From the NCBI RefSeq assembly GCF_037975245.1, contig NC_092565.1, positions 19,447,999 through 19,511,998 on the forward strand: a stretch of 64,000 bases of DNA, read 5' to 3'. Positions 2,565 through 60,857 of the stretch are shown one piece after another (position 1 is the first letter of the stretch; every line of letters starts with the position of its first letter). This DNA comes from Apostichopus japonicus. Lineage: Eukaryota > Echinodermata > Holothuroidea > Aspidochirotida > Stichopodidae. The notes beneath the pieces were generated by a model, which worked only from the letters and a program-made list of their open reading frames with translations, did no database searches and was not told the origin of the DNA. Both the position numbers and the translations under genes were made by a program.

Positions 2565-3033
2565 ATGCATCCGAGTGGTGACTTAGTTTCAGGCCCGCGC
2601 CAGGGCCCTGCTACCCCTAGCGGGGACACACTGGGGCGTCAAATCGGTCAACAAGAAACAAGGGACAGAAACAGCCCCAGACCGGCCCTATCTCCATCGT
2701 ATGTGCAAAGGGTCGCGGATCATCCGGACGCTACTCCTACCGATGAAGCAGCAGCAGAGAGCCAGAATGTAAGCGACAAATACGAACCAACATCCTTCTC
2801 GGTGATGGACATTTTAGACCCACAGAAATTTACTGGTAGAGAGAAACAAAGGATAACAATGGTCTCAGAGAAACAAAGGATAACAATAGTCTCAGAGAAA
2901 CAGAGGATGGCGACTGAGAGTACAAGACAAAAGATGACAATAGATTCCGATTTAGCCATCTGTGGAAAACATTTTGATTCTCGTGAAATCAGCCCAGCAA
3001 ACCATCAGAGGCTTTCACCATCGATATCAAGAC
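2565..3033 (+). CDS. Nkx1: NK1-class homeobox gene 1, coding exon 1 (eh1 domain)
   Basis: First coding exon of a slouch/NKX1-type transcription factor (residues 1-156 plus one base of codon 157). Residues 1-70 are low-complexity and rich in Pro, Ser and Gln. Residues 78-90 read FSVMDILDPQKFT, which matches the TN/eh1 motif that NK1 proteins carry near the N-terminus and that recruits Groucho/TLE co-repressors. Immediately after it, residues 93-128 form four degenerate 9-residue repeats. The exon ends at 3033 before a strong donor, gtaagt. The split codon (phase 1) matches the acceptor at 10678/10679, so the joined frame is open across the splice. The start is supported by the TGA four codons upstream. 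The open frame past the donor (to 3098) is intronic read-through. The exon-1/exon-2 link is inferred from phase, motif order and orientation; no transcript evidence was available. Confidence 0.87.
2841..2948 (+). repeat. In-frame 27 bp tandem repeat inside gene 1
   Basis: Four 27 bp units at 2841, 2868, 2895 and 2922 encode EKQRITMVS, EKQRITIVS, EKQRMATES and TRQKMTIDS. The first two differ by a single base; the third and fourth are diverged. The unit length is a multiple of three, so the frame is kept. Each unit has a central basic/polar stretch. The array lies directly C-terminal to the eh1 motif. Confidence 0.9.
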
Positions 3034-6000
3034 GTAAGTTATTTTATCATCAATATTATTCTTTAATTTTTGGTGGAGAGGAAGAAGGGGAAGGATAGGG
3101 AGAGGGAGGGGGCAGGGAGGGGTTGAGGGGGAGTTTGAATGGGGGTGAAGGGTTGACTCGACAGAGCTGTCAAGCACTGGCGAAATATTGCGTGATGCAT
3201 TGAATGAATAATGGTAAGTAATATTATATGCATGCATGAAACAATGCCTTATAATTATATATAATGTAACCCATTTCAATATTGTATTTGTAAACAACAA
3301 TATTCATAAACAAAAATATATGCTCTTTACTGTTAACTTCCATTGAAAGAATGTTTGTCTATGTTGCACGTGTTGCATAACTCTGCATTATCGTATATAG
3401 TTTACGTTTCTTTAATGTAATAAAATTAATTCACTGAAGTTATTTTCTTTAACTTACGAAAACGATTTTGTTTAATTTTCGTTTTCATAAATCTACGAAA
3501 ATAATAAAACGGGCATGACATATAATCACCTCCGACCGTAAAAACGTTTGTTTACTCAAAATAACATCAATATTGACATATTTGACATAAAACAAACATT
3601 GTAGAAATAATTAAACAAACTCTTAATTTTACATGATTTTTTAGGGAACATATCGCAATACCTGCGGTCAAAATTGAGAAAGTGGGGCACAATAATAACA
3701 CTTGTTCGTGTATAAGGTACTGACAACAGCAAAGGGTAAATGGGAAAATATTAACAGCGGTTTTTTTTGAAAGGGAAAGCTAGCGTGGACTTGAATTCTG
3801 TTTTAGACAAAAATATTTTCGCCTACAATCAAACTTTTATTACAAATGACATATGTGTCAAAAATGTATTAGTTCTACTTTTTTCTTTTGTTTTATTTTG
3901 CGCAATATTAACTTTTCAATTCTTATATTACCACCATTATCGTTTCCGGCAAGTTTAGCCAAATGTTTAATTTCAAAGTAAAATGTTATACTAACTTACA
4001 ATTTATGAAATTAAGGCACACTCGTCCCAACACTCAACCCAAAATCAACTTCAACAAAAGGTAACCGAAACACGTTAACAAAGTGAAGATAACAATGATT
4101 CATAATATCATCACTTTTCTTTTTCACATAATTGGCAGAAAAGATTGTTAAGGCATTTTAAGGCATTAAGGATTTTTAGGGCAGGGGAACATAATTGTAT
4201 AACTTTACTGAAACCTTCATTTTACCTTTTAGCATCTTATGGAAATGTGAATACGTTATTCATCACAAGTTTCTATGACTCCCTCCACCCCCCCCCCCCA
4301 CCCTCACCAAAGTTTATCCTGGCCATTGGTCTGTATCCCTTCTGATTCCCCTCTCGTCATTAGCTTGTTGTACATTTATACAGAAAGCAACTATAGACTC
4401 ATCGAATGATTCTATTTCTTATATTTTTGTCTCTATTTTGTCGATATGATTCAGGTCATATGTGTGGTTAACTTTTTTTTCTTCATGTTAATAGGAAAGG
4501 AAGTAGTTATAGGTGTATTGTATCGTTCTGACACTCGTTTAGTTCATTTTGGTGAATTGGATGACTTTTCTAGCACATATAACGGCTCTACCAAACTTGC
4601 CAAAACGGAAAAGACCACTTTTGTTTGCGTTCCTCGCTACATCGCTTAATTGCCCTTTGTGGAATTTTACAAGCTTTTGATGACAAATAAATAAATCAAA
4701 CAAATCGTATATATATCGAAAACTTTTACGACATTGTTAAAAAGCGGTTATATGAATTAGATTAAACAGTTCAAACTTGTTTCTTTACATGGTAGGACAC
4801 TTCGTAAAGCAATTGTAAGTTTTTTGAATTTTTTTTTTCTCTCTTTGGTGTGCATGGGGTGAAACTTGTTTCCTAATTCATTCCCGACAAGTTTGGATTT
4901 GATGGGTTTTTCTTGCGTGTAGGGTTTTTTTTTTGTGGAAGGAAATGCCCTTGTTAGTCTGGATTACAAAATACCAAAAATAGAATGATTTTACATTCTG
5001 GAATTTGCTTTAAAAAGTGAGGTATTTAGCCTCATTCTAAACCATTTAATATAACCGGATATCAAAAAATTGTTATTGGGTATGTGTTGTTGAGCATGAG
5101 ATATGTTATTAAAACATAAGTCAAATAAGTAGAAAAATTGGCGACCCAGTTTGATTCATTTCATAAAAGTTATTCCAATTTTATAAAAGGTCAAAGAACA
5201 ATTGTTGTAGCTCGAACTAAATATGCAATTTATGTATCGAGTAAATATTGAAAAAAAAAACAGAAGTATGTGTGAAATATTGTCAGCGAGCTAAAAAGTA
5301 ATGTTTTGTATTCTATCGGAATTTTGTATGTATATTTTTTTACAACATATCAATACGTGAAACTTTCAGCAGGAGAGATGGGGGGGGGGGAGTATTTTTG
5401 GATTAAATGAATATGAATATAGTACAAAAAAATATATATGGTATTTTATTATTTAAATTAAAAACTTAAACATTAAAAAATGACGTCATACAGATAATAC
5501 AATTCCGGAAGGCTAAACTCTCGAGTTTTATAAGCATATATGATTGATGAAAAAATAAAATAAATAAACGTTTTGGAACGGTTTATATATTGAGAAAGAA
5601 TAAAAAGTGTTCATTTCGCTGAAAGATAACATTAATGTTTATCCGTATATTATGAACATAACGTTTTAGTTACAATTCATTGGATGTAATACTTTGAAAT
5701 AAAGTAAAATTTGGTTCAAGTCGGAAACTTTCTATTTTAGAAAGAAACATCTGTTTGTCATTATAAGCTTAATTGACAGGACAAACTTAACAGACGCTTC
5801 GACCTTGGTTTTATCATGATTTTGTGTCCCCTTCAAATTAACACTGTTAAAACAAACGAAGTGTCACAGATTAATTAAGAAACTATTTTGTGTTACACTT
5901 GAAATCTGAGAAAGTTGAAAAATTGTTTCACCCCAAAGGCCACTCTCAAGCAAAACTCTAAGCACTATGCAACTATTCCGTTCACCCCTCCATCCCCCCC

Positions 6001-59985: not shown

Positions 59986-60129
59986 TTAAAACTTGTCCAC
60001 TCAGTTCTCTTCAATTGACCTCTATAGATATTCTTCAACGTATAACTCACTGGTGTTGAAAACACTCTGCTATCCCAGTATGGAAGACAGTTTCTTCTTT
60101 CTTCTCCTTCTTATGTCACACGTATAAAG
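59986..60129 (-). other. Probable proximal 3' UTR of gene 2
   Basis: Sequence directly downstream of the stop codon on the minus strand. No hexamer signal within it. Confidence 0.35.
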
Positions 60130-60857
60130 CTAGACGTGCCCAAGATGGCGTAAATGGCAATGAACGTGGGAAGGAGGGAGTGGCGTGGATGATCCCATTA
60201 TGGTGTAGGGTAAACTAGGGTGGGATAAACCAGTTAAAGGTGTAGTGTAACCTGTGAATGGATGGTGATGATGATGGTGGTGAGCGCCAGCGTACACCAC
60301 CCCCGGGGTGTAAGCGAAAGGCGTCATACTCATTAGGGGCGGTGAGTGATGCCCCGGGGACGGAGAAGCCGTCGTTGGGGCGTTTGGATCCATGCCTGGG
60401 TTTTGTTTCTTCCATTTCGTACGTCTATTCTGAAACCAAATTTTGACCTGAGTCTCCGTTAAGCTCAATGAAAGCGCTAAGTTCAATCGCTCACAGACGG
60501 ACAAGTATCTAGTTGTCTTAAATTTATTCTCTAGCGCTACAAGTTGTTCATAAGTAAAAGCGGTTCTAGCTCTTCTAGGTTTAGCAGATTTGGCCTCGCT
60601 AAAGTCGTCCTCATCTTCTATATCATCCTCATCCTCGTCGCTTCGTTTTCTCTTCCCTGGTGATTCCCCAGTTTCAATTTCACCCCCACTCTTGAAATGG
60701 TTGTGCCCATCCATATCACGTGACATATCCATATTCCCATCATCTTCCTCCTTGGGTGACTTTTCGCCGCCGTCTCTCGCTTCATCTAACCCATCTCCTC
60801 CTCCTCCACCGTGTAATCTCGAAGGACTGCTAGGTAACGAACCGTGCCGCTCATGAT
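60130..60857 (-). CDS. Nkx1: NK1-class homeobox gene 2, homeobox exon (partial gene)
   Basis: Last coding exon of a second NK1/slouch-type gene, read on the minus strand. It starts after an acceptor ttatccacag at 60858-60867. The entry phase (two bases of a split codon) is the same as in gene 1. It encodes 241 full residues. First comes an acidic, Gly-rich linker with a poly-Gly run and a basic patch [12 protein letters not shown] that could act as a nuclear localisation signal. The homeodomain is at exon residues 93-152 (60579-60400), with [22 protein letters not shown] and [14 protein letters not shown]. An 89-residue tail has a 7-His run and ends [12 protein letters not shown], then TAG. 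The homeodomain is identical to that of gene 1, while linker and tail differ. The open frame continuing upstream to an ATG at 60945 is intronic and lacks an eh1 motif. The 5' exon is expected beyond 64000. Confidence 0.94.

Follow-up and report, generated by a model that had tools for sequence, protein, structure and literature searches.

The vertebrate homeobox genes NKX1-1 and NKX1-2 are unlinked and are usually regarded as copies left by whole-genome duplication. In a spider, the genes NK1A and NK1B are described as differing in the time and place of their expression (PMC13088399), and NK1 has been reported next to NK5 in several arthropods (PMC10726417). Among echinoderms, nk1 of a sea urchin marks the ventral ectoderm next to the blastopore in a Nodal-dependent manner (PMC3009687). 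In the present study, a stretch of 64,000 bases from the sea cucumber Apostichopus japonicus (contig NC_092565.1, here C5, positions 19447999-19511998 of the source genome; hereafter the window) was analysed together with adjoining sequence. The window carries two genes that look NK1-type, NK1-A and, in part, NK1-B, and this pair probably arose by an old local duplication of NK1 with inversion within an Hhex-NK5-NK1 block.

The initial annotation had described two NK1 genes facing each other, and the reconstructed gene models agree with this: both genes are open, have sensible splice sites and converge tail to tail, with stop codons 48,817 bases apart. NK1-A lies complete in the window and encodes 367 amino acids from two exons, with a phase-1 donor GT at 3034. 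NK1-B is cut by the window edge, so that the annotated pair holds within the window for NK1-A and for exon 2 of NK1-B, whereas exon 1 of NK1-B was located outside by reading the adjoining sequence. This outer exon ends in a donor CAG/GTAAGA in phase 1, matching the phase of exon 2, and completes a protein of 400 amino acids. In both genes, a phase-1 intron lies upstream of the homeodomain and AT opens the second exon. Moreover, both proteins carry an N-terminal EH1-like motif, TSFSVMDILDPQKF in NK1-A and TSFSVMDILSPTKF in NK1-B, and have the motif TSFSVMDIL[DS]P[QT]KF in common. A 27-bp minisatellite of 2.6 copies (window 2840-2908) was also observed in frame in exon 1 of NK1-A, encoding [RS]EKQRIT[MI]V repeats; no repeat of this type was seen in the 400-residue NK1-B protein in the alignment.

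Both genes matched the Pfam homeodomain PF00046 above its curated cut-off and over all 57 positions (E = 4.1e-22 and 5.4e-22), and characteristic sequence features and neighbours in the PDB placed them in the ANTP class. The homeodomains also fit the NK1 signature, and both proteins look NK1 class, as first annotated. A search of the whole genome (671.6 Mb) with the 70-residue homeodomain block, in which all 96 first-look candidates were scored, revealed 41 matches, of which the only two at 100% were NK1-A and NK1-B, followed by the next at 62% identity. The pair therefore represents the sole two NK1 matches genome-wide. Outside the source genome, none of 51 pattern matches in viral_contigs and one of 426 in genome_contigs were confirmed as relatives. 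The single confirmed contig, NZ_JAHHPM010000463.1 (L001), filed as Endozoicomonas sp. YOMI1, carries three tandem open frames with homeodomain matches 42-47% identical to NK1, which may reflect animal contamination or another origin.

The two genes belong to an Hhex-NK5-NK1 block on C5, a contig of 24.5 Mb. Hhex and NK5 lie within about 125 kb of NK1-A, all four genes within about 183 kb, and NK5 stands head to head with NK1-A at 49,794 bases from ATG to ATG. Seven further NK-type homeoboxes (Msx, Tlx, two Emx, Lbx, NK4, and NK6) lie farther off on C5. The names Msx, Tlx, and NK4 are backed by PDB matches, and those of Hhex, NK5 (Hmx), Emx, Lbx, and NK6 are what we take the genes to be from their signatures.

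Comparison of the two genes points to considerable age. In the homeodomain block the proteins are identical, while 160 of the 210 nucleotides agree, against 158.9 (95% range, 149-169) expected under independent codon draws; the proportion of synonymous differences (pS) reached 0.993, and fourfold sites differed at 18 of 27 positions. Across the full alignment, 153 of 355 residues were identical, 70 of them in the homeodomain block, leaving by subtraction 83 matches among the 285 residues outside it. The N-terminal and C-terminal parts nevertheless each outscored 300 of 300 shuffles. Judged from these sequences, NK1-A and NK1-B are real, old paralogues with a strongly constrained homeodomain, and the pair is old rather than young because its synonymous sites are saturated and its termini have diverged.

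Local duplication with inversion, as proposed in the initial annotation, is the simplest origin, since these are the sole two NK1 matches of the genome search, they lie side by side within a single NK block, and they have phase-1 introns and an EH1-like motif in common. The ancestral NK1 would have stood head to head with NK5 in the Hhex-NK5-NK1 block, and its inverted copying would have yielded the two convergent genes. Several points weigh against this explanation or limit its detail. The nearest PDB chains to the homeodomain are engrailed, BarH-like, and GBX, and the NK1 class is assigned from the NK1 signature; the distances from the intron to the homeodomain block (about 66 residues in NK1-A and about 92 in NK1-B) are comparable, not exactly aligned. 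Synonymous saturation excludes a young pair but gives no date, its age being bounded by saturation only, and a tree of the homeodomains carries no signal on the lineage specificity of the duplication because the two homeodomain proteins are identical. Furthermore, a tandem duplication with a later, independent inversion would explain the arrangement just as well as a one-step inverted duplication, and the explanation is drawn from the sequence of one echinoderm genome. The coordinates of the features are collected in Table 1.

Table 1. Features of the NK1 locus and its neighbours on C5 (window positions, unless preceded by C5).
Feature	Position	Strand	Remarks
NK1-A exon 1, coding	2565..3033	+	start codon at 2565; EH1-like motif TSFSVMDILDPQKF; in-frame 27-bp minisatellite
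NK1-A intron	3034..10678	+	7,645 bases, phase 1
NK1-A exon 2	10679..11313	+	homeobox; stop codon 11311-11313
Interval between stop codons	11314..60129	.	no gene recognised by Pfam; contains dispersed repeats, satellites and SINE-like elements (SINE, short interspersed nuclear element)
Dispersed repeat	16296..16466	+	73.7% relative at 59959..59790 beside NK1-B
Tandem array, 101-bp unit, 9.5 copies	19781-20740		
Tandem array, 232-bp unit, 2 copies, 99%	46875-47347		
tRNA-headed SINE-like elements	51739-52030 and 49790-49864	.	ARAGORN tRNA-Ser cga, tRNA-Gly acc; partial relatives in 1 and 2 other loci
Tandem array, 138-bp unit, 4 copies	54433-54990		
NK1-B exon 2	60857..60130	-	carries homeobox and stop codon; the acceptor before 60857 is of phase 1
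NK1-B intron, partial	60858..64000	-	8,776 bases overall, runs on to window-equivalent 69633
NK1-B exon 1, beyond window	window-equivalent 70108..69634 = C5:19518106..19517632	-	found by reading adjoining sequence
Hhex	C5:19335194-19337764	-	homeodomain search; name from signature
NK5	homeobox C5:19394594, first exon starting near 19400769	-	homeodomain search; name from signature

The interval between the two genes had been described as lacking another recognisable gene, and six-frame Pfam scans likewise gave none. The scan covered the whole window in 60 frames, in overlapping pieces with stops written as X and E up to 0.1, and besides the two homeodomains it returned six weak hits with E-values from 0.0038 to 0.058, all of them taken for chance matches. 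The longest open frame of the interval, 151 amino acids, was reached in 13 of 60 sequences drawn from a Markov model with matching dinucleotide composition and is thus within chance. Mid-sized frames exceeded the expectation from the same sampling, with 31 of at least 90 amino acids against 15.8 and 166 of at least 60 against 116.2; part of this excess sits in TA runs and satellites, so that repeats explain it partially. Despite the excess, hidden genes were rejected by the Pfam scans, with which small, fast-evolving genes or non-coding transcripts may still be compatible. One Rfam tRNA match and two ARAGORN tRNA calls were read as the heads of SINEs, given the sequence that follows them and their relatives in other loci.

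The initial annotation had further suggested that this interval could be a shared regulatory domain. The idea that the 48.8-kb gap controls both genes and holds them together seems doubtful, and it fared poorly in that the gap is of ordinary length and no collinear similarity of non-coding sequence was found between its two sides. It draws support from the lack of a Pfam gene in the gap and from the location of both genes within a homeobox block poor in other genes, where long-range enhancers are common. Against it, the gap between NK5 and NK1-A is equally long, and eight of the nine spacings in a Hox-like run on contig C4 are longer; these nine spacings between ten homeobox matches range from 14.7 to 146.6 kb (median 97 kb) and may hold other genes. 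The scanned parts of the flanks also gave no Pfam match at E = 0.01, neither in 40 kb of the stretch from NK5 to NK1-A (L023, L024, L025, and L013, not L026) nor in 40 kb beyond NK1-B (L011, L012, L029, and L030, not L010 or L031). In addition, TAATTA-type homeodomain sites showed no enrichment across the gap (z = 1.2, 1.7, and -0.9), and the gap connects the 3' ends of the genes, not their promoters.

Sequence shared by the two sides of the interval was examined by comparing them in mirrored orientation, which recovered the homeobox (E = 2.8e-42) and then several weaker matches. In the controls, reversed sequence gave nothing better than E = 0.004, while the opposite orientation reached E = 4.8e-13, so that many of the mirrored matches represent repeats occurring in either orientation. 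This comparison uncovered no collinear similarity in the non-coding sequence of the two sides, the best match being a dispersed repeat and the rest not standing in one order. This best match (16296-16466 against 59959-59790) was considered as a mirrored element downstream of both genes and rejected, since copies elsewhere are closer than the 73.7% between its two members: among 1078 first-look candidates genome-wide, the 40 scored comprised the repeat itself at 100% and 39 copies at 94-96%, and copies of 85-94% occurred in three of 28 other loci. The family is short and dispersed, with a TATG-rich run at its start. When five further matched elements were compared with the 28 loci (244 kb), three recurred and those at 17511-17699 and 17701-17781 did not; the set comprised loci other than L001, L005, L007, L008, the mitochondrial loci, and those of 100 bases, and the pair 14879-15037/36510-36354 also stood outside this comparison. 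Overall, these sequences give no clear sign that non-coding sequence was duplicated and retained beside the two genes. A broader proposal, that the NK1 pair, holothurian or echinoderm-wide, has long been held convergent by shared long-range enhancers in the gap, with NK5, NK1-A, and NK1-B acting as a joint regulatory block and the duplicates sharing out one ancestral programme of NK1 expression, appears doubtful as well.

With regard to origin, it is improbable that the pair predates the echinoderms, its members matching the two NK1 genes found in amphioxus or in vertebrates. Synonymous saturation, which sets no upper bound on age, leaves room for such a pair, but the vertebrate genes NKX1-1 and NKX1-2 are usually attributed to whole-genome duplication. 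Amphioxus Nk1 is listed among genes with paralogues, many of them from small-scale tandem duplications (PMC6010424), which would favour an older pair, whereas papers on a sea urchin and a sea star, which are not a genome census, speak of a single nk1 (PMC3009687, PMC3002323). An assembly artefact, in which two haplotypes or two loci were joined, is barely credible although a single assembly lies behind the arrangement: haplotype copies or a recent duplication, one form of the mis-assembly contemplated in the initial annotation, are ruled out by the saturated synonymous sites (pS 0.993), and against a join of two loci, which saturation does not cover, stand the absence of any N from the window and from 16 nearby C5 stretches, the 24.5-Mb length of the contig, and the closeness of both copies to NK5, where NK1 is expected.

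Given a local duplication with inversion, the persistence of two copies may be considered from the proteins. In other homeodomain proteins, the EH1-type motif recruits Groucho-type corepressors. NK1-A and NK1-B would accordingly be EH1-type transcriptional repressors, presumably with the same DNA preference because their homeodomains are identical. Since the homeodomain, and hence the expected DNA preference, is the same, divided or shifted expression, of the kind described for the two NK1 genes of a spider (PMC13088399), is the likeliest reason for two copies having been kept; retention would have come about through an expression difference, with the ancestral pattern divided between the genes, and not through a difference in DNA binding. 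The control of each gene probably comes mostly from elements close to its promoter and within its intron, because the two promoters sit at opposite outer ends of the pair.

Other observations were made on C5 and elsewhere in the genome. Two homeoboxes on C5 that we take to be Emx-like (11991433 and 12044790) lie 53 kb apart on the same strand, a local duplicate on the NK contig; 46 of 46 residues and 112 of 138 nucleotides are identical, and 24 of 46 third positions differ. The nearest other coding-like stretch met beyond NK1-B is a 699-residue open frame matching DUF4218 (L032), about 59 kb past the NK1-B start codon. On contig C3 (27874381-27877272), four homeodomain matches fall within a single open frame of 3340 residues, presumably resembling Zfhx-type genes, and on contig C22 (23.75-24.85 Mb) five partial homeodomain matches that resemble one another share a strand and may represent a local expansion or a single class of split homeoboxes. 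The mitochondrial contig C35 (16,099 bases) carries COI, ND4L, COII, ATP6, COIII, ND3, ND4, ND5, ND6 (minus strand), CYTB, a 12S-fit stretch, ND1, ND2, and a 16S-fit stretch; we take these names from similarity and the order to be that of echinoids and holothurians. ARAGORN in mitochondrial mode called no tRNA genes on C35, and the gene order rests on the protein-coding frames. On C4, ten homeobox matches lie between 6.139 and 6.929 Mb, of which the three inspected (L002, L004, and L006) look like Hox; a well-ordered 10-gene Hox cluster over ~940 kb has been reported for A. japonicus (PMC5638244).

With respect to earlier descriptions, no NK1 pair in an echinoderm appeared in the titles and abstract openings among the literature matches listed, and a text search of the literature for printed stretches of the window matched six papers, each through a single short DNA string, and no protein strings. 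The genome paper of A. japonicus counts 108 homeobox genes and assigns 26 of them to the NKL subclass, and the NK1 pair may already be listed in its homeobox table (PMC5638244). The linked duplicates described here, with identical DNA-binding domains and diverged flanks, offer a natural test of paralogue retention by expression change alone, and the preserved NK linkage on C5 is useful for reconstructing the bilaterian NK cluster.

Two NK1 genes, Nk1a and Nk1b, are likewise known from transcriptomes of the annelid Spirobranchus lamarcki (PMC6118893), and vertebrates also have two copies of this homeobox family, the mouse NKX1-1 and NKX1-2 genes being named in PMC4604119. The amphioxus Nk1 paralogues are, as here, NK1 copies of an invertebrate deuterostome, although of a different phylum (PMC6010424). 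The Parasteatoda genes NK1A/slouA and NK1B/slouB resemble the A. japonicus pair in that NK1 has tandem copies with linkage to further NK genes, but they belong to an independent lineage and were dated by their authors to just after the arachnopulmonate genome duplication (PMC10726417, PMC13088399). In summary, on the published accounts of spiders (PMC10726417) and of the amphioxus paralogues (PMC6010424), local duplication of NK1 is a known kind of event, to which the convergent pair of A. japonicus adds a new case.

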